Positions 3,964 through 22,808 of a stretch of 24,356 nt of DNA are shown piece after piece (positions within the stretch are counted from its first letter, which is position 1; every line of letters begins with the position of its first letter). Source of the DNA: Candidatus Zixiibacteriota bacterium. Lineage in GTDB: Bacteria > Zixibacteria > MSB-5A5 > SM23-73-2. Below the pieces are notes generated by a model. The model was not told where the DNA came from and searched no databases. It worked only from the letters and a program-made list of their open reading frames with translations. Position numbers and translations under genes: made by a program. The stretch spans positions 1 through 24,356 of the forward strand of contig JAUWYR010000039.1 in assembly GCA_030615745.1 (NCBI GenBank), read 5' to 3'.

Positions 3964-5472
3964 TTAAAATCTATAGCTTATTGTGAAATGGGAAATGTGA
4001 GCTTCCATCCAATAATCTCCAGGATAATTGTCAAAAATCCCATCTTCGTTCAAATCGCTTAAGTTCTGGACAGTTCGTTTTTTATAACTTTGATATTCAT
4101 AGTTATACCCTATCTCTGTATTCCCGAATTTATATCCTATGCCAAATGTGATGCAACTTTTATCTCCTATATCAGGTAAAATAGGTGAGAGGGTATTATC
4201 AGGGATGGGTGAAGGGTCAAAATAATAACCCCCATAGACTGGTAGATTCTCCAAAGGAAGATATTCGAATCCAAAGCTTATGCGGGTTACATCCTCCCAG
4301 TTAAACAGTATCTCGGACTCTTTAGCAGATTCTAAATTCTCTTTTAATGGAACTAAAGTGTCATTTTCAACTGTAAGTGGATCAACTGAAAATTTTGGAT
4401 TTATTTTCTCAAGCCTTGACCAATTAACCCGATTAACATCGAAGGTGAGAGTAATTTTCTCATTTGGCTTAAAAGCTACTCCTGCTCCTAAATCACCGGG
4501 CAAGGATAAATCAACTTCCTCCTCAAGCTCTGCACGAAGAAGATCACCTAAAAAGAGTACATAAATTCCAGGATATTTTTCATCCAAGCTCAAGCCTAAC
4601 CAGGGATTATAAGGTAAATAAATATCTAAAGTGGAGGTTCCTGACAGATTCAAATCGACCGGACTCCGATAAGAGACCCCCAATTGTAGTTTAGGGCTAA
4701 TTTTATATAAAAGCCCTAAGTTAAATCCAAAGCCCCACCCATCCTCATCTAATTTAGCATCCATAGGAAAGTTCTCATAAGGTCTGTCGATTTGTAATTG
4801 TGGATTTGTTGGAACTAAAATGGTTTTTCTAAAAAGAAAATTTGCAAATTGAACACTTATCCCAAGTCCCGCTGAGAGTCTATCTTTGATTAGCTCCTTG
4901 GCTACACAGGGATGGAAGTCAAAGACGTCCAAGTTGATCTGGTGGTTTGCTTTGGGATAGGGAGTACCTGTTTCGTATCCTGGGGGTGGATGGTATATAT
5001 CCCAGCCATATTTTGCGGTATAGGGAATAAAGAAAGACATCCCGGTGTTAAATCCTCCCCATTTGCCTATTTTGATAAAACCTCCGAAATTTGGTAATCC
5101 AATATTCTTATCATCCGGATACCATTTTATTCCATTTTTGAAGCCCACATCATAACCCTCAAAAGTTATCTCTGGCTGATAAGAGGGTCTGGGGCTGAAA
5201 ATGAAAAGAGAAGCATAAAGCTCAGAATTTTCCATAGTTGCCAATCCAGCTGGATTCCAAAAAGAAGCGCTCCAATCATCAGCCAACCCTCTGAATGCAC
5301 CACCCATCCCCATAGCCTTAAGACCTATACCTGATACCGCAAACCCAGAGCCCCAGGATGAGGTAAAGCTGAAAAGGACAACTAAAATAAAAACAAAAAG
5401 GCTAAAAACTTTTCTCTTGATGTCTCTTGACCTTCGGTCTCTTGATGCATACGCACATACGCATTTCCTCAT
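3964..5472 (-). CDS. FadL/OMPP1-type outer membrane transport protein
   Basis: The mature N terminus (GSGFAVSGIGLKAMGMGGAF, then ADDWSASFWNPAGLA) is the hallmark of the FadL/TodX/OMPP1 family, which import hydrophobic compounds through a 14-strand outer-membrane barrel. The chain ends in HFTISYRF with C-terminal Phe, as barrel proteins do. I chose the ATG at 5472 (GGAG six bases upstream) because a normal signal peptide core (VFSLFVFILVVLF) then follows at a usual distance. A TTG at 5529 with a stronger GGAGG is an alternative and would add 19 residues. Codons 4-20 after the ATG come from a palindromic repeat (5413-5463) that seems to have been inserted into an ordinary MRK-KVFSLF start. The esterase-like lipoprotein follows in the same operon. 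Confidence 0.85.
   Translation of the reverse strand: MRKCVCAYASRDRRSRDIKRKVFSLFVFILVVLFSFTSSWGSGFAVSGIGLKAMGMGGAFRGLADDWSASFWNPAGLATMENSELYASLFIFSPRPSYQPEITFEGYDVGFKNGIKWYPDDKNIGLPNFGGFIKIGKWGGFNTGMSFFIPYTAKYGWDIYHPPPGYETGTPYPKANHQINLDVFDFHPCVAKELIKDRLSAGLGISVQFANFLFRKTILVPTNPQLQIDRPYENFPMDAKLDEDGWGFGFNLGLLYKISPKLQLGVSYRSPVDLNLSGTSTLDIYLPYNPWLGLSLDEKYPGIYVLFLGDLLRAELEEEVDLSLPGDLGAGVAFKPNEKITLTFDVNRVNWSRLEKINPKFSVDPLTVENDTLVPLKENLESAKESEILFNWEDVTRISFGFEYLPLENLPVYGGYYFDPSPIPDNTLSPILPDIGDKSCITFGIGYKFGNTEIGYNYEYQSYKKRTVQNLSDLNEDGIFDNYPGDYWMEAHISHFTISYRF
5413..5463 (-). repeat. In-frame palindromic repeat inside the porin signal peptide
   Basis: This 51-base segment holds three TCTCTTGA units, a GACC-TTC-GGTC mini-hairpin, and CATACGCACATACGCA (plus-strand reading). 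It adds 17 codons, rich in Arg and Ser, between MRK and KVFSLF. Removing it restores a plain signal peptide. Its first 25 bases are identical to the copy in tatD. Confidence 0.75.
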
Positions 5473-5818: not shown

Positions 5819-8419
5819 ATGTATAAAAAGATCAATTTATTATTTTTATTATTTTTAATTTTTTCGTTCTTTTTTACCCCTTTTGTTAGAGCAGACAATA
5901 AGACTTTAACTTTCAATTTATCCAATGGGATGAAGGTGATATTAAAAGAAAACCACGCCAATCCGATGATAGCTTCTTTGATCTATGTTAATGCTGGAAG
6001 CAAATATGAAAAAGATTACAACAATGGTGTGAGTCATCTTTTAGAACACCTTTTATTTGATGGAACAAAAAAAAGAACAAGACAACAGATAACCGATGAG
6101 ATAAAATCCAAAGGTGGCTACATCAATGCATTTACACAAAAAGAACTAACCTGCTATATGGTGCTTTTACCTTCTGAGTTTATCGAATATGGCTTGGATG
6201 TCCAATCGGATATGCTTTTCTGTTCCATCTTTCCAGATTCTGAATTAGCCAAGGAAAGGAAAGTGGTGATAGAGGAAATTAAAAAGGATGAGGATAATAT
6301 CGACTATCAGGTTGAGAAGTTTTTCGACTCCCAAGCTTATAAGGGAACTCCCTATGCCCGTCCGGTACTTGGGTATGAGAATATAATCGCAACTATCTCA
6401 AAAGAACAGATAATAGATTATTATGAGAGTTATTATAAGCCTAATAATATGATTGCTTTGATCATAGGTGATTTTGAATCCGAAAGGATGCTTGAGCTTT
6501 TAGAAAAGTATTTTGGAGAAACTCAACCAAAGCCACTTTTAGAATTTCCCAGAATCGAATTTTTACCCCCTTTGGAAAAAAAGGTCCGATATAAGGAAAA
6601 AGAAACTAAAAACACCTACTTATCTTTATCATTTGATGCTCCACATTTTACTGACCCGGACTTTTTTCCTTTTGATATATTAACTTTCTATTTGAATTCA
6701 AAAGAGATCTCACCCCTTTACAAAGCACTTTTAAAAGGAGAAAATCCTCAAGCTTTAGATTTTTCAATAGATCTGGAATTACAAAAAGAATTTTGTCGTC
6801 TAAACATCCACATAACCACTGATTCGCCTGAAAAAGTAAAAAAGATTTTTAAAACAATAGAGAATTCTTTAGAAGGACTTCCCGAAGATAATCTAACCCA
6901 GGAAGACTTAAACCGGATAGTTGTTTCCAAAAAGACCGGTGAATATTATTTAGAGGAGAAACTCCATCACTATGCAATGTATAAAGCTTCGGTGATTGTT
7001 AATTGTGGAATAGAATTTTTAGATTCTTATCTTGACCAGCTCGAACTGGTTACGCCAAAATCCATAAAAAGGGTTGTGGAGAAACATTTTTCAAACCCTG
7101 TTTATATTGCCACAGTTGTGGTTCCGAAAAAGGATGAAAAAGAAAAAAGGGAAGAAAAATCTTTTAGCCATTATCATAAAGAGATTTTAGATAATGGCTT
7201 GACTGTCATAATAAAGGAAAATCCTGATTCAAAGGTTTTAGGGATAAATATATTAGGGGAAAATCGTTCTGCTTTTGAACCGGAAGGGAAAACAGGTATT
7301 GCTGACCTTTTAAACAGAGTCCTTTTAAAAGGAACAAAAAAAAGACCTGCTGAAAAAATCATAGAGGATAAAGAAAAAATAGGTGCGGAGATAACATTAG
7401 TTGATAATCCTTACATTCCTTATGATGACCTTTACACCACCCCTCTTTTTAGCTTCATAAAATTCCAGACAATCGATGAATTTGCAGAGAGTGGATTTGA
7501 GCTTCTGTCTGATATAATCCAAAATCCTGTTTTTTCTGAACAGGAGATAGAGAATTCAAAAAAGGAGATGATCGGTCTTATAAAAAGAGGGGAAGGAAGC
7601 CCTTATAAAAGTGCAAGAAGACTTTTTTATTCGAAGCTCTTCAAAGACCATCCCTATGGTAAAAGCATAATGGGTGATCCCACAACACTTGCGTCTATAA
7701 AAAGAGATGATCTGGTTGAATTTCATCAAAAATTTTACTCGCCAGAAAATATCATCATGACAATTGCCACAAACATAAAAACAGAAGAGATGATAAAGCT
7801 GGTTAAAAAATATTTCGGGGATATGCCAAAAGTAGGCTTTACTTCTTTTGAGGTACCTGTTCCATCAAAAATTACAGCACCTATCAAAGCCAAAAAAGAG
7901 ATGCAAAAAGAACAGATTTATATCTATTTAGGCGGGCTTCTTCCAGGAATAAATCATCCTGATGCACCGGCGCTTAAGGTGATGAACTCGATTTTATCCT
8001 CAAGATTGGGACAAAGCTTAAGAGAAAAAAAGGGACTGGCTTATTCAGTGGGGTCAAATGTTTCTTTCGATAAGGACTTCGGCTGGTATATTGCCTCCAT
8101 AGGGACCAGACCCCAAAACTATGATGAGGCTCTGGGTGGAATCCTAAAAGAAATGAACCAGATTAAAATCACTTTGGTCTCGAAACAGGAATTAGAAAAA
8201 GCTCAAAACGCTATCTGGGGCAGTTTGCTTTTCTACCGCCTTTCTAGGATAAACCAGGCATTCTGGATGGGGGTGAATGAATTTAAGGGTGCAGGATATG
8301 ATTACGATGATAACTATATCGATATTATCACAACTGCAACCAGAGAGGATGTTAAAAGGGTTGCTGAAAAATATCTCGATACAAAAAATTATCTCTTAGC
8401 AGTGGTTGGTAAAATATAA
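5819..8419 (+). CDS. Exported M16 (pitrilysin/insulinase) zinc protease, two tandem halves
   Basis: This 866-residue protein has an N-terminal signal peptide (core LLFLLFLIFSFFF, ending near VRA). The first M16 unit (~28-450) has the inverted zinc motif HLLEH at residues 73-77 and a downstream Glu in ERKVVIEEI near 152-153, the third ligand. The second unit (~460-866) aligns in outline (NGLTVIIKEN, LLNRVLLKGTKKR) but has LLNRVL where HxxEH should be, so it is the non-catalytic partner. It keeps the family's substrate-binding segment LREKKGLAYSVG. This is the usual arrangement of fused periplasmic M16 proteins, which clamp and cleave unfolded peptides. GGAG precedes the ATG. It is followed by the DUF6249-like gene. 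Confidence 0.93.
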   Translation: MYKKINLLFLLFLIFSFFFTPFVRADNKTLTFNLSNGMKVILKENHANPMIASLIYVNAGSKYEKDYNNGVSHLLEHLLFDGTKKRTRQQITDEIKSKGGYINAFTQKELTCYMVLLPSEFIEYGLDVQSDMLFCSIFPDSELAKERKVVIEEIKKDEDNIDYQVEKFFDSQAYKGTPYARPVLGYENIIATISKEQIIDYYESYYKPNNMIALIIGDFESERMLELLEKYFGETQPKPLLEFPRIEFLPPLEKKVRYKEKETKNTYLSLSFDAPHFTDPDFFPFDILTFYLNSKEISPLYKALLKGENPQALDFSIDLELQKEFCRLNIHITTDSPEKVKKIFKTIENSLEGLPEDNLTQEDLNRIVVSKKTGEYYLEEKLHHYAMYKASVIVNCGIEFLDSYLDQLELVTPKSIKRVVEKHFSNPVYIATVVVPKKDEKEKREEKSFSHYHKEILDNGLTVIIKENPDSKVLGINILGENRSAFEPEGKTGIADLLNRVLLKGTKKRPAEKIIEDKEKIGAEITLVDNPYIPYDDLYTTPLFSFIKFQTIDEFAESGFELLSDIIQNPVFSEQEIENSKKEMIGLIKRGEGSPYKSARRLFYSKLFKDHPYGKSIMGDPTTLASIKRDDLVEFHQKFYSPENIIMTIATNIKTEEMIKLVKKYFGDMPKVGFTSFEVPVPSKITAPIKAKKEMQKEQIYIYLGGLLPGINHPDAPALKVMNSILSSRLGQSLREKKGLAYSVGSNVSFDKDFGWYIASIGTRPQNYDEALGGILKEMNQIKITLVSKQELEKAQNAIWGSLLFYRLSRINQAFWMGVNEFKGAGYDYDDNYIDIITTATREDVKRVAEKYLDTKNYLLAVVGKI

Positions 8420-14733: not shown

Positions 14734-14768
14734 TTCCCTATCACCTACCACCTATTACCTATTACCTA
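14734..14768 (-). repeat. Five tandem heptamers TAGGTAA-type
   Basis: On the minus strand the array reads TAGGTAA, TAGGTAA, TAGGTGG, TAGGTGA, TAGGGAA without a break. It overlaps the tatD stop codon, supplying its last codons, and a sixth partial unit (TAGGTGATAGG) lies just before the rsmA start. Confidence 0.85.
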
Positions 14769-15558
14769 ACCCGAACAAATTGAACGCATTTTTCTCAGTG
14801 ATTTCTTCTACTTCTTGGAAACTTGAATCAGAAAAAATCTCTGAGAGTTTTTCTACTACAAATCTTACATAGGATGGTTTGTTCCTTTTTCCCCTGAAAG
14901 GGGCTGGTGAAAGATAAGGGCAGTCTGTTTCTGTTAAGATAAAATCTATTGGGGTATTTTTTGCAATATCTTTTGCTTTTGATTTAGGGTAGGTCAAAGT
15001 TCCGTTGAAGGATAGATAAAATCCTAAAGAAAGACCAAAATTTGCTTGCTTTTGGTTACCTGAGAAGCAGTGCAAAACCCCGCCAATTTTTTGCACATCG
15101 TTTTTTTTCAGAATGTTTAAAGCATCATCATATGCATTTCTTATCTCTTGATGTCTCTTGACCTTCGGCATACGCATATGCACAACAATCGGGAGATTAA
15201 GCTTTTTTGCAAGATCTATTTGCTTTTCAAAAGCTTCTATCTGAATTTTTTTAGGAGATAGATTCCTGTAAAAATCCAGCCCGATCTCCCCTATTGCAAC
15301 GACTTTTTCGTTTTGAGCTAAAATCTCAAGATTTTTTAAAACACCATCATCCAGAGTTTTTGCATCGTGAGGATGAACCCCAACAGTGGCGTAAACAAAG
15401 GGATACTTTTTGGCAAGCTCCAGAGATTTTCTGCTGGACTTCAAATCCACCCCTATATTTATAATCCTTTTCACCCCGGAAGCTTTCGCCTCAAAAATTA
15501 TCTTTTCCCTGTCAGGGTCAAACTGGGAAAAATCCAAGTGTGCGTGAGTGTCGATCAT
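14755..15558 (-). CDS. tatD: TatD-family metal-dependent hydrolase with an in-frame repeat insertion
   Basis: This 267-residue TIM-barrel protein belongs to the TatD/YcfH DNase family. Metal ligands are visible: THAHLDF (His5, His7), GEIGLDF (Glu91), PIVVH (His127), HCFSG (His163) and ETDCPYL (Asp212). PAPFRGKRNKP is also typical. In this family His127 is followed as H-x-R-[DN]-A; here HMR is separated from RNAYDDAL by 11 extra residues (129-139) that come from the palindromic repeat at 15142-15174. Without them the protein is 256 residues, the family norm. A TATAAT-like box at 15585-15580 (minus) may drive the tatD-rsmA run. Whether the insertion permits activity is unknown. Confidence 0.93.
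   Translation of the reverse strand: MIDTHAHLDFSQFDPDREKIIFEAKASGVKRIINIGVDLKSSRKSLELAKKYPFVYATVGVHPHDAKTLDDGVLKNLEILAQNEKVVAIGEIGLDFYRNLSPKKIQIEAFEKQIDLAKKLNLPIVVHMRMPKVKRHQEIRNAYDDALNILKKNDVQKIGGVLHCFSGNQKQANFGLSLGFYLSFNGTLTYPKSKAKDIAKNTPIDFILTETDCPYLSPAPFRGKRNKPSYVRFVVEKLSEIFSDSSFQEVEEITEKNAFNLFGLGNR
15142..15174 (-). repeat. In-frame palindromic repeat inside tatD
   Basis: The 33-base insertion contains TCTCTTGATG, TCTCTTGA, CCTTCGG and CATACGCAT (plus-strand reading); exact ends are ambiguous by a few bases. Twenty-five bases match the porin copy exactly. It adds 11 codons and keeps the frame. Confidence 0.8.
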
Positions 15559-15700: not shown

Positions 15701-16285
15701 TCACAATACTTCTCCATAATCTACCTCAATTCCATCGTCAATCTTTCTATAATAGATAATTTTGATGTCTATATGCTCTGGTAATGCAGCTTTAGCCTCA
15801 TAGGTGTAGGGCTTTATAGACACTGGAACATCCCCTATATATCCATCAATTCCTTTTGACTCTTCATCCTGCTCAGATAAGCGGTAATTAGTTCCTTTTT
15901 TCTCAGCGCCTTTCTTTAGTATTGCTTCCTGAAACCTCAATCCCATAAAGGTTTTCACAATCACTAAATCTCTTACCCATTGCTCAACTACGGTTTGGTC
16001 AATTTTATCTATTGCGTTCTTTAAATTTTTCAACATTTGCAGTATCTTTTCTGTTGCGTTTCTGATCGCATCAGGTTTTTGTTCCAAATACCATCTTTCC
16101 CATTCAGATAAGGACTTCCCTGTGAATTGTTGAATAAGCTCGCTCATTTGACCAACAACTTTTGGTCGTGTCCCTTGTGCGTATTGATTTGCTAAATTGA
16201 CCAATGGAGCCACATACTTGGGAAACTCAGGCGTTTCTATGTCCAAATATCTCCGGATTTCTTCATTGCTGATTTTCACTTTCAT
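15701..16285 (-). CDS. Type II restriction endonuclease, MjaI family
   Basis: This ~194-residue protein matches what I recall of the MjaI restriction endonuclease family: ETPEFPKYVAPLVNLANQ, GTRPKVVGQMSELI, and the probable nuclease core EESKGIDGYIGDVPVSIKP, a PD-(D/E)xK-like arrangement with Asp, a following hydrophobic strand and Lys. MjaI itself cuts CTAG; the specificity here is inferred from the family only. I chose the ATG at 16285; a TTG at 16297 overlapping the methyltransferase stop (TTGA) is possible. The cognate methyltransferase gene lies directly upstream on the same strand. If that gene is truly broken, an active endonuclease would be dangerous to the cell. Confidence 0.75.
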   Translation of the reverse strand: MKVKISNEEIRRYLDIETPEFPKYVAPLVNLANQYAQGTRPKVVGQMSELIQQFTGKSLSEWERWYLEQKPDAIRNATEKILQMLKNLKNAIDKIDQTVVEQWVRDLVIVKTFMGLRFQEAILKKGAEKKGTNYRLSEQDEESKGIDGYIGDVPVSIKPYTYEAKAALPEHIDIKIIYYRKIDDGIEVDYGEVL

Positions 16286-16293
16286 CTTATATC

Positions 16294-17625
16294 TCAATCA
16301 ACTATTTGTTTTTGTAAACTTAAAAACTTTGACTTATATTTGTAATCAAATGCACTGTCCACGTCAACCAAACCATTTTTAACCAAATGGGCGTTTAAAA
16401 AGGTCTTGTTCCGCAAATAAAGATAGCAAAGTAGGTTGTTTTTCTCATCATATTTTATATTGTCAAACCTCAGAAATACTTTTTGACCACGGGTTTTTTC
16501 TCTTAAAAATTGAATAGCCTCTCCGTTTTTCTCTGGTAGCTCTTTTACTCCTAATAATCTAATTTTTAAACCATTATTTAAGACTAATATTTCAGGGTTA
16601 ATTATCTCTTTCACAGTATAGTATGTTTCCCTCTCGGAATGAGAATTGTCTATCTTTGAACCAAATCTCAATTTTTTTTGGTCAACTTTTTTATCAAACT
16701 TTATCGGATCTTTGAAAATATATGGCAATTTTTTAATCTCTTCTTTAAAGTCTATTTTGGCATCTTTTTGTTTGATTATCTCAAAATCCGAAGGACTCTT
16801 CGAGTCTCTTGATCGATACCGACTTGCATCTTGAAAAATAGTGTTTTGTTTTAATCCTAATTTTTCCTTTATAACTGGCAAAAATTTTTCTGATATTTCA
16901 TACCCAATAGAGTTTCTTTTTAGGTTTTTAGCTGCCAGAGATGTTGTTCCACTTCCTAAGAAAGGATCAAGAATAGTATCACCAACAAAACTAAACATCT
17001 TGATAAGTCGCCTTGGTAATTCCTCGGGAAACATTGCTAAATGCTTATCCTGTTTTTCACCGGGAAAATTCCAGTGCCCTGTAAAATATTGATTCTATTC
17101 TTTCTGGGTTAATTTTGACTGCTCTTTAATTTTTCTACTCACCTTTGGAGGATTTCCATATTTCTTAAAGATTAAAATGAACTCATAATCTAATTTAAGA
17201 ATCCCACTTCTTGGATAAGGGAAAGAACCCATAACTGTTGCACCGCCAGTAGTATGACAAGTAGTGACCTTTTGCCAGATAATGGCACCCATATAATCAA
17301 ACCTCACACTTTCACAAAACTTGATTATCTCTGTTCTTATTGGGATAATCTTATATCTTCCATAATAGACAGAACGAGCGAACTGGTCGCCAATGTTAAT
17401 ACATAAACGACAACCCTTATGTAAGACCCTGTGGCATTCATTCCAGACTGAGTTGAGATTGTTGATATACTCTTCATAAGTATCATTGAAACCTATCTGC
17501 TTTCCACCTCCATAGTCTTTTAGTTGCCAATAAGGTGGGGAAGTAATGATAAGATGAACGGATTCACTTGAGATTTCTCTCATCCATCTTGAATCACCGA
17601 TAATTATTTTATGTTTTGTTTTCAT
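16294..17625 (-). pseudogene. Beta-class DNA methyltransferase with in-frame TAG and C-terminal SNase-like domain
   Basis: Two fragments in the same frame make one 443-codon gene. The N-terminal part (~1-176) has the catalytic TSPPYWQ near residue 29 and IGFNDTYEEY; the C-terminal part has the SAM motif DPFLGSGTTS near 220. Catalytic before SAM motif is beta-class order, as in N4-cytosine enzymes such as M.MjaI. Codon 177 is TAG (17097-17095), within GAA-TAG-AAT-CAA-TAT-TTT; homologues have Trp here (EWNQYF-TGHWNFPGE), so a single TGG-to-TAG change explains it. Residues ~334-443 resemble a staphylococcal nuclease fold (IRLLGVKELPEKNGEA, FLNAHLVKNGLVDV), but the second catalytic Arg is not seen. 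Residues ~268-279 come from the palindromic repeat. It could be a pseudogene, a read-through gene, or a sequencing error. Confidence 0.8.
16788..16826 (-). repeat. Diverged palindromic repeat inside the methyltransferase gene
   Basis: The segment contains GACTC-TTC-GAGTC followed by TCTTGATCGATACC (plus-strand reading), parallel to GACC-TTC-GGTC then TCTTGATGCATACG in the porin copy. It encodes SRYRSRDSKSP, very like SRDRRSRD in the porin. Boundaries are uncertain. Confidence 0.55.
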
Positions 17626-17840
17626 CTTATACACTTTAAAGGATTTGGGTTATTGAAAGCCTCGATTTTGCTTAACTTGTTCATATTCGAACTCGGTTCG
17701 ACTTCTTTTTATGTCCTCCAATTCTCGAAATATCCCCTATAATAAACTCCAATTTTTTTCAAGATAAACAGAAAAAAATAAAAATCAATATTTTTTATTA
17801 TTTGGTAACCCCCGCACTTTGCGGAATCCCTACAAATCTT

Positions 17841-17934: not shown

Positions 17935-17978
17935 TCTCTTGAACCATACGGAGATGTCATCAAGACTCTTCGAACTTC
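17935..17978. repeat. Non-coding copy of the TCTTGA/CATACG repeat family
   Basis: Here TCTCTTGAACCATACGGAGATG is followed by TCATCAAGACTCTTCGAACTTCGCATAC. All the modules of the coding copies are present in scrambled or diverged form. Confidence 0.5.
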
Positions 17979-18061: not shown

Positions 18062-19044
18062 AATTTCAATCTCCCCGCTGTTTTCAACACATACAAAGCA
18101 TCCACTGTTACGAATTCGTTCATATGTCTCTTACTGGTCCCGCCCCAATCAACAAGTGAGCGCCCGGTAGCTTTCTTTTCTGTAACTCGATAATACTTCT
18201 TTTCCGCAGGAAACCCACCGTCGGGCAGGCGCTTCGATTCCAAAAGGTCCAGAGCATCACAGCAGCGTTTATCAGAGATAAAACCTGCCTCTGCCATGAC
18301 CTTTAAACCGAAAAGCATATCATAATGCCAAAAACAAGGATAATGAAATCTTACAAAGTCATCCGATATGATTTTCCCATCTTTTTGCCTCTTGAACATT
18401 TTTCGCTTGAGGAAAATCTCCGATGCTTTTTCTGCAGTTTTTTTTGCTTCCCTGTTACCGGTTAGCTTTCCATAAAGGGCTAATGCACGAAGTGGAATAA
18501 GGCTTTCATGAAATGACGAATTTATCGCTTTGGGGTTTTTGTCACAATTCCACCCACCATCGGGCCACTGCCATTTTATAAGACGACGTGCAAGCTCATC
18601 AGTTCGGGAATCTGCCAAGCCGAGAGTAAGTAGATAGTAAAGCGCATTCCCCTCCTGTGAAGCACATCTTCTCACCCTGCCCTCGATCAATCTTATGCTC
18701 TTTTCATGCTTTTTTGAGAAAAGCCACTGGTAAACCTGCGCCCTTAATGGAATGAGTGATTCATCACCTGGGGGATAACCGATCTCTTGATGCATACGCA
18801 TATCCGCAAGACATGCCAGAACCCAGTGACCACCATACCATTTGGCATAGGGATGAAGTGGTATTTTACCATCCTCCCCTCTTTCAGAAAGAAGCAATTT
18901 TACTCTCTGAGACGATTTTATCTTCTGTTGAAGTTTTTTAATCTCAATCGATTCTTTTTCTTTGCATAAAACATTCACCAAAACTTTGAATCTTACAGAT
19001 GGCTCATCTGATTTGAGTAGCCTGTCAATTATACTGTCCATCAT
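18058..19044 (-). CDS. Alpha/alpha-toroid (prenyltransferase/squalene-cyclase-like) protein of unknown function
   Basis: The 328-residue product has the repeated toroid signature: WQWPDGGWNCDKNPKAINSSFHESLIPLRAL near the middle and RLPDGGFPAEKKYYR near the end, each a Gly-rich turn between helices, as in squalene cyclase/prenyltransferase repeats. No DxDD-type catalytic motif is evident, so no reaction can be assigned. I chose the ATG at 19044, five bases after AGGAG, over the ATG at 19059. Residues near 85 read LADMRMHQEIGYPPGDES; removing an 18-base repeat (18784-18801) gives the smooth LADIGYPPGDES. The stop codon lies inside a double-hairpin element. An IS remnant lies directly upstream. 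Confidence 0.75.
   Translation of the reverse strand: MMDSIIDRLLKSDEPSVRFKVLVNVLCKEKESIEIKKLQQKIKSSQRVKLLLSERGEDGKIPLHPYAKWYGGHWVLACLADMRMHQEIGYPPGDESLIPLRAQVYQWLFSKKHEKSIRLIEGRVRRCASQEGNALYYLLTLGLADSRTDELARRLIKWQWPDGGWNCDKNPKAINSSFHESLIPLRALALYGKLTGNREAKKTAEKASEIFLKRKMFKRQKDGKIISDDFVRFHYPCFWHYDMLFGLKVMAEAGFISDKRCCDALDLLESKRLPDGGFPAEKKYYRVTEKKATGRSLVDWGGTSKRHMNEFVTVDALYVLKTAGRLKL
18784..18801 (-). repeat. Short in-frame copy of the palindromic repeat inside the toroid gene
   Basis: The 18 bases read ATGCGTATGCATCAAGAG on the minus strand, lying between the GAT and ATC codons of LAD-IGYPP. The same TCTCTTGATGCATACGCA string (plus) occurs in the porin copy. Confidence 0.7.
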
Positions 19045-20551: not shown

Positions 20552-20610
20552 TTTACATCCTCTTTATTAGTATTCACTTTCTTTTAACATCACAAAATCT
20601 CAAGGATTAA

Positions 20611-20725
20611 CTAACAATACTGATTTTACTGTTGGTGTGAACACCAACAGAGAACAAGAGGAATTTTCCAGTTAGCTAACAATACTGACTTTTCTTTTTT
20701 GTGTAAAACACAACAGAGAACAAAG
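20611..20725. repeat. Two ~48-base direct repeats, each with an internal inverted repeat
   Basis: Copies at 20611-20657 and 20676-20724 share CTAACAATACTGA at the left and ACAGAGAACAA at the right. Each has a different central palindrome: GTTGGTGT/ACACCAAC in the first and TTGTGT/ACACAA in the second. The stems vary while the flanks are conserved. Confidence 0.7.
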
Positions 20726-20726
20726 G

Positions 20727-20750
20727 CGGGGTAAGGTACCCCGCCATAAC
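20727..20750. repeat. 24-base palindromic direct repeat, copy 1
   Basis: CGGGGTA and TACCCCG form a stem, followed by CCATAAC. The same 24 bases recur exactly at 21168-21191, so the pair brackets the zinc-finger gene. Confidence 0.8.
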
Positions 20751-20831
20751 TTGTATTGCAGTATAATATACCCCGACACAACTTCTCAATAACTATTTAC
20801 TCTTTCTTTTTAAAAAACAGGGGAAACTTTT

Positions 20832-21167: not shown

Positions 21168-21191
21168 CGGGGTAAGGTACCCCGCCATAAC
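21168..21191. repeat. 24-base palindromic direct repeat, copy 2
   Basis: Identical to 20727-20750. It lies directly after the stop codon of the chimeric pseudogene and before the zinc-finger module. Confidence 0.8.
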
Positions 21192-21978
21192 CTAAATCAC
21201 CCCCATCTTTTTCCCCGCCCTTTGAAAAACCTCCAAAACCCTGTCCATCTGCTCATCGGTGTGGGTTGCGGTATAGCTTGTTCTCAAAAGCTGAGAGCCT
21301 GGTGAAACTGCTGGAGAAATTATCGGATTGGTGAATATTCCTTCATCGAAAAGTATCCTCCAGAACACAAAGCACTTCATGTCATCACCAACATATATTG
21401 GAATTATCGGAGTCTGAGTTTTTCCGATGTTAAATCCTATCTTCTTGAATTCCTTTTGCATCCTCTTTGTTATCTCCCATAACCTTTTTCTTCTTTCAGG
21501 CTCCTCGATTTTCTCGATTTCAAGCTTAATCTTCGCTAGGTCTTGAATAACCGGAGGCCTAAACCAGTAGTCTATATTAAAGAAGTTGGGAATTTCAGGT
21601 CTGGACGGATTGAAATAAATGAAATTTATCAACTCATTAGCTGTCTTTGTCAATCGCCGAGGCTCTATAGGCGTGGTTTTGACCCTCGCAAGAAGTAATG
21701 CAAGTGGATTCAGATCAATCCCTGCAGAATTTCTGCTGTTCAACATTGATTCCACCAGAACTATTCCTGATCCGCAATAAGGATCTACTACGTTATTGCT
21801 TTTCCTGCTATGCTTCAGTATAAATCGATTAGCAATCTGAGGTATCATCATAGCAGGGTAAGGAAGGATACCGTGCACCGAGTACTTTAGTGTCTTCCTC
21901 TCGGAAATCCCAAGAGAAATCTTCTCTCTTTTTTTCTAAACTTTGAGCAACATTTTCTCGGCTTAATTTGCGACCCAT
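21192..21978 (-). pseudogene. Chimera of a DNA methylase 5' part and an alpha-oxoamine synthase 3' part
   Basis: Translation could start at ATG 21978 (GAGG seven bases upstream): MGRKLSRENVAQSLEKKRED, then FSWDFREEDTKVL. A one-base excess (CTCGGTGCAC for CTC-GTG-CAC, near 21880) shifts the frame; the rest reads HGILPYPAMMIPQIA and VVDPYCGSGIVLVES, an exocyclic-amino DNA methylase with SAM motif, but its later SPPY catalytic motif is absent. From about residue 120 of the downstream frame (near 21510) the text changes to PERRKRLWEITKRMQKEF, KTQTPIIPIYVGDDMK, NPIISPAVSPG, LLRTSYTATHTDEQMDRVL: the C-terminal end of an alpha-oxoamine synthase (KBL/BioF/serine palmitoyltransferase type). Neither half keeps a complete active site. 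Confidence 0.8.
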
Positions 21979-22534: not shown

Positions 22535-22808
22535 CTTGTATTTATTTGCGTAGTATCAAGAGATACGAAAATCCCGAAATTTTTTTGGATTTTCATCTCT
22601 TAAAATCTTTACTGATTAACTCCAATGGTTTCTTTATAATTGTCGGACAATAACTACATAACTTTGAATTTAAGCCTTATTATCAATTGCTCAAAGCTTT
22701 TAAATACTTAGACTTTAACCTGTTGTGAAAGAAAACTAAACATATCCGAAGAATTCATAGAAAAAACTTTTTAAAGATAGTGCCTTTCCAACAAAATAAA
22801 CCTACTAC

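Follow-up and report, generated by a model that had tools for sequence, protein, structure and literature searches.

An 11-residue insertion in a Zixibacteria TatD protein and the family of very small, probably mobile repeats to which it belongs

The tatD gene of a Candidatus Zixiibacteriota bacterium carries a 33-nt insert beside the codon of a metal-ligand histidine. We consider it likely that this insert belongs, as one of many copies, to a family of ultra-small mobile repeats that amplified recently, movement of the units included. The gene lies in a stretch of 24,356 nucleotides (contig JAUWYR010000039.1), hereafter the window. TatD is not special in this respect: dozens of further genes in this genome carry the same element, and it is the family of elements that constitutes the actual finding. 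Insertion and a species-level expansion are well established at the level of sequence comparison, and mobility would follow from the comparison with one diverged relative (about 73–79% DNA identity).

The insert in TatD

The tatD gene (14755..15558, minus strand) encodes a TatD-family metal-dependent hydrolase of 267 aa. Its ORF covered positions 1–253 of the TatD_DNase profile (Pfam PF01026, 7e-84), a full-length match that places the protein in this family. All ligands of the HxH, E, H, H, D set are kept, namely H5, H7, E91, H127, H163 and D212. The insert of 33 nt, or 11 residues, is located between the metal-ligand His127 and the conserved Arg (R140). In an alignment of 29 orthologues from related genomes (45–85% identical), H-x-R was contiguous in 29 of 29 with both residues invariant, and none had residues at the insert site; the loop is likewise absent from solved TatD structures such as 1j6o. 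A previous sequence-only reading had proposed a repeat insertion adjoining the ligand His, with all other ligands remaining, and the alignment agrees on both points, H5, H7, E91, H163 and D212 being intact in it. Loops of equal length in relatives, which that reading had named as the counter-evidence to look for, occurred in 0 of the 29 orthologues.

The repeat origin of the 11 residues was confirmed as well, and their string recurs in the window at 5413-5463 and 18783-18800. The position that had been given, 15142-15174, did not hold: this register leaves H-M-R-N after excision, and the repeat consensus fits 15144-15176 (15144..15176, minus strand). Excising 15144-15176 yields CAT ATA AGA AAT (V-H-I-R-N-A), as in the H-I-R-N of the same-genus relative SM23_73_2, which has a clean empty site at tatD, CAC ATC AGA AAT. 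Since this register restores the H-I-R-N of the relative, M128 and R129 are element-derived, and R140 is the ancestral Arg. The composite, TGCGTATG[CCGAAGGTCAAGAGA]CATCAAGAGA, hence encodes R129–I139 (RMPKVKRHQEI) together with M128. It splits the H-x-R motif by 11 residues, and its own R129 gives H127-M-R129, a duplicate of the conserved Arg.

The AlphaFold2 model of the window's TatD had an intact barrel (pLDDT 94.8, pTM 0.92), compared with a pLDDT of 97.0 for the insert-free TatD of the relative, and it matched TatD crystal structures with TM-scores of 0.90–0.91. Residues 130–139 were predicted as disordered (block mean pLDDT about 51), in a low-confidence loop with a strand ending at 129 before it and a helix starting at 142 after it. 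In the model, the insert leaves the fold intact and forms an 11-residue surface loop past the His127-bearing strand, outside the barrel. Between a barrel that tolerates a loop and an altered enzyme, the two outcomes that the sequence-only reading had considered, the prediction favours the former, and we regard the insertion as a tolerated passenger, presumably not an adaptation.

Unit architecture

The main unit comprises 18 nt, of which the first 10 nt form a mini-hairpin (3-bp stem and GNAN loop, e.g., TGC-GTAT-GCA) and the remaining 8 nt the tail TCAAGAGA. A perfect 3-bp/4-nt hairpin was found directly upstream of TCAAGAGA at 79 of 128 non-redundant places sampled, as opposed to 2% of random positions. 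TGC/GCA was the most frequent stem among these 79 (66), followed by TCG/CGA (8), with TGG/CCA, TCA/TGA, TAC/GTA, TCC/GGA and TGT/ACA occurring once each. Among 17 distinct units, each of the three stem pairs varies on both sides, and 98% of cells are paired versus 66% after shuffling; the stem covariation score is 0.814, compared with 0.189 for shuffled units and no more than 0.123 with slid partners. The hairpins are short and, with standard DNA parameters, weak (main unit, −1.5 kcal/mol; TCCGAAGGATTCATAGAA, 0), and because the thermodynamic z-scores are weak, the case for the hairpin rests on covariation. Extraordinary stability is known for DNA hairpins that combine a GNA/GNNA loop with two or more G-C pairs (PMC4686876). 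Heads such as TGCGAAGCA include exactly GCGAAGC; GTAT, the loop found most often, falls outside the classic GNNA type. Possibly, the low stability under standard parameters reflects a missing GNA/GNNA loop bonus.

Sister units combine a 9-nt GNA-triloop head (TCCGAAGGA, TGCGAAGCA, CTCGAAGAG or TGCGGAGCA) with a 9-nt tail (TTCATAGAA, TTCTTCGAA, TCTTGACGA or CTCTTCGAG), again adding up to 18 nt, and nest likewise. When a 15-nt unit (CC-GAA-GG + TCAAGAGA) is nested inside an 18-nt unit, the 33-nt form results, as in tatD, and larger forms are a 51-nt nested composite and a 54-nt tandem array. The 51-nt nested composite occurs in the window within the leader of a gene for a FadL/TodX-type outer-membrane protein (5413..5463, minus strand), where it adds 17 residues to the signal-peptide n-region; the relative has an empty site and encodes MKKKALSLF. 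A single 18-nt unit in a 333-aa ORF (18783..18800, minus strand) adds six residues, MRMHQE/I; the corresponding site of the relative, GATTTG|GGTTAT, is empty too. Two tandem 18-nt units, TCGGTATCGA+TCAAGAGA and CTCGAAGAG+TCCTTCGGA, lie in an N6/N4 DNA methylase-fragment ORF (16787..16822, minus strand), for which the relative offered no alignable empty site. Two further copies are less regular. The degenerate unit CCGTATGGTTCAAGAGA (17935..17951, minus strand) sits within a longer dispersed repeat, of which a further copy (L004) is without it, and TCCGAAGAATTCATAGAA (22745..22762, plus strand) probably belongs, in decayed form and with an imperfect stem, to the TTCATAGAA-tail family.

Expansion in one genome

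The 2.28-Mb genome contains 111 copies of CATCAAGAGA versus 2 of the reversed control; the same-genus SM23_73_2 contains 6, and the other relatives searched 0–24. The excess over the control is far above chance. Further work on the copies used the sequence surrounding the sites. A scan for the general unit grammar gave 27.7 hits per 100 kb in this genome, compared with 4.4 in the relative and 2.3 for the reversed control; the sample had been picked by CATCAAGAGA, so that the share of TCAAGAGA is inflated. Clean empty sites were found in SM23_73_2 at all three window elements checked (33, 18 and 51 nt) and at many others too. Along 99 kb of syntenic alignment, about 40 insertions (12–90 nt) are specific to the window's genome, of which by our judgement about 26 are TCAAGAGA-tail or sister units. 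The reverse comparison over the same 99 kb gave 17 relative-specific insertions, including one unit, CTCGTATGAGTCAAGAGA, of the same design with another stem (CTC/GAG), and two tandem units are present in the SM23_73_2 contig LJUW01000104.1. Against a wide distribution, the exact 18-mer was found in only four contigs among 84,980 genomes, a set that may lack the records for the genome of the window; one of the four is from a same-genus Zixibacteria. A literature search on Zixibacteria repeats and in-frame micro-repeats found nothing.

A phage origin was rejected: none of 2.9 million viral contigs contained the core of the 33-nt form, and the 17-nt core matched 6 times in this set, by our estimate about the number expected by chance. 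Separately, a longer intergenic dispersed repeat (L133:18135-18271) represents a distinct, larger family that matches the relative's genome some 20 or more times.

Target sites and proposed movement

From the flanks of 38 GTAT-loop units we derive the preferred target [AT]TN^TNNG, with T at −2 (29/38), A or T at −3 (34/38), T at +1 (29/38), G at +4 (30/38) and never G at +5. In the GGAA class, G stands at +5 in 10 of 10, which equals a one-base register shift. As the units themselves start with TNNG, this preference may explain the tandem arrays. Units are present in either orientation, and none of the empty sites examined showed an apparent target duplication. A replication-strand bias by GC skew was marginal (t about 1.8) and was set aside.

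We also propose how the units may move. The hairpin would act as single-stranded DNA and would be cut and pasted by a putative single-strand transposase or recombinase provided in trans, and the length of 18 nt would persist because it is frame-neutral. No enzyme could be linked to the units: the genome has three Y1_Tnp genes, and no TCAAGAGA-tail unit lies within their 3.2-kb contexts; Y1 (RAYT-type) transposase loci were hence rejected as the source. We tentatively propose that the 18-nt mini-hairpin is among the smallest known mobile elements, mobilized in single-stranded form by a trans-acting enzyme, exchanging heads and tails and selected in length for colonizing coding sequence, essential genes included, although we would put this at somewhat below even chances.

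The main rival mechanism, which we judge rather unlikely, would mobilize the units through templated copying in the course of replication or repair, by hairpin- or microhomology-driven template switching or an RNA intermediate, and would do without a dedicated transposase. Sites free of apparent target duplication and the lack of a linked enzyme are in agreement with such copying, as are the nested and tandem growth of the units and the many combinations in which heads and tails recombine. In contrast, the target preference WTN^TNNG and the precise 18-nt ends suggest a specific enzyme.

Units in host genes

Out of 98 insertions, 68 fall within ORFs of 100 aa or more; both orientations occur. 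The coding share of 69% is lower than the 83.5% of target sites (p = 0.0004). Sense insertions use the three phases 10/21/10 times and antisense insertions 19/0/8 times, the zero being the sole stop-containing frame. When the element was removed from the 30 non-ORF insertions, one possibly broken gene appeared versus about nine expected from simulated insertion at 6,000 target sites. This only candidate (L038:158-175, minus strand) has a unit in the stop-containing frame; without the unit its ORF, near a contig end, would have 253 aa. Lengths not divisible by three (17 nt, n=3; 34 nt, n=2) all occur outside ORFs. Judged from the sequences, in-gene units come in multiples of three, almost never use the stop frame and amount to insertions of 6, 11 or 17 residues (STATISTICALLY). 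As the stop frame is avoided and the 17- and 34-nt variants stay outside ORFs, translation of the inserts is the most likely outcome, with those that break the frame purged; it is the frame statistics that speak for translation.

These statistics also bear on the idea that a normal TatD protein is still made, either because the insert is a tiny intron removed after transcription or because the ribosome skips it in the manner of mitochondrial byps. A hairpin with stem covariation and units in essential genes would fit this idea. With removal, however, the frame would be irrelevant, whereas the stop frame is avoided, no 17- or 34-nt variant lies in an ORF and the frames used contain no stop codon within the units, and we consider it quite improbable.

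Among the host genes, priA (L134:10806-13319) carries three independent 18-nt units, two antisense and one sense, with the frame open over 838 residues, and an IF-2B/MtnA-like gene carries two. Further hosts are gatB, purH, a Mur ligase gene (murF-type), the smc hinge, lptF/G and relA/spoT, as well as a phosphomannomutase-type, a DHH and a SurA-type gene. Many of the unit-bearing proteins (PriA three times, GatB, PurH, SMC and others) are essential in other bacteria. This amounts to a natural insertion scanning, in which dozens of proteins received 6–17 extra residues at sites set by the DNA sequence, not by protein structure. One genome thereby offers a means to study how short insertions enter proteins, together with a testable search for the responsible enzyme.

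Relation to known elements

The best reading of the family is that of a mobile, frame-neutral micro-element that may be regarded as a miniature functional analogue of the Rickettsia palindromic elements (RPE). RPE and the Wolbachia elements (WPE) are dispersed repeats found in frame in unrelated genes and read through as peptide (PMC10969869, PMC3767692). The units likewise stand in frame within ORFs, in 68 of 98 cases, with translation suggested by the frame statistics. RPE measure 100–150 bp (PMC3767692) and are palindromic over their full length, whereas here an 18-nt unit in a Zixibacteria-type genome bears a hairpin of just 3 bp within the first 10 nt and a separate tail. If mobile, the units would have roughly a sixth to an eighth of the RPE size and raise the question of how little sequence suffices for mobility.

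Mitochondrial repetitive or double-hairpin elements and GC clusters feature tandem hairpins with compensatory stems, lie in genes and are kept in transcripts (PMC2800124). Compensated stems, tandem and nested growth and a location in genes, most likely with no excision, are shared with the units, which does not imply shared ancestry. In contrast to the mitochondrial arms of 10–18 bp (PMC2800124), the units have 3-bp arms, a bacterial chromosome as host and a frame-neutral length of 18 nt. By size or structure, they belong to neither RPE nor mitochondrial hairpin elements.

Like REP/REPIN sequences with their RAYT, the units are short hairpin DNA in high copy number, for which single-strand movement by Y1 enzymes is plausible, and the genome has three Y1 genes. 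REPs are described as extragenic tagged palindromes of 20–40 bp (PMC3733652). The units, however, are single, lie to about 70% inside ORFs and, in their TCAAGAGA-tail form, flank none of the three Y1 genes. MITEs are small non-autonomous repeats as well. Unlike in MITEs, the unit ends TGCG...AGAGA are not inverted repeats, and the empty sites examined had no apparent target duplication; to our knowledge, the units are also far shorter than any MITE. By these comparisons, they count neither as REP nor as MITE.

A short signal motif, i.e., a DNA-uptake sequence, Chi or a replication or partition signal, would accumulate by substitution and biased uptake instead of insertion. The very high frequency of the units, both within and between genes, would suit such a motif. 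DNA-uptake sequences, however, arise without length change, whereas the copies here are clean 18-, 33- and 51-nt length insertions relative to SM23_73_2, with stems that are free to vary while pairing and units that nest, which makes a signal motif very improbable. It is hardly credible that the insert is a regular TatD loop or an adaptive feature of the domain in this lineage: the intact AlphaFold barrel with the loop outside would allow it, but the alignment refutes it, with 29 of 29 orthologues lacking residues there and the same string present in unrelated genes. An assembly or library artefact of adapter-like sequence, to which near-identical copies in one draft genome might point, can be dismissed with similar assurance, as compensated stem variants, sister tails and the avoidance of stops and frame shifts are not adapter behaviour and the independently assembled relative has two tandem units.

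Further features of the window

At 15701-17634 (minus strand), an MjaI-type restriction endonuclease adjoins an N6/N4 DNA methylase that is split into two ORFs, 17095-17634 and 16294-17034; the latter ends in a staphylococcal-nuclease-like domain and is the ORF with the two tandem 18-nt units. Another ORF, 21192-21878 (minus strand), is chimeric and looks like a deletion fusion, with a match to a DNA methylase over the initial quarter and to the C-terminal end of a class I/II aminotransferase in the last part. Finally, a cluster of short direct repeats at 20607-20782 and 21168-21191 contains CGGGGTAAGGTACCCCGCCATAAC in two exact copies and one diverged copy, along with two more repeated blocks at a spacing of about 66 nt.
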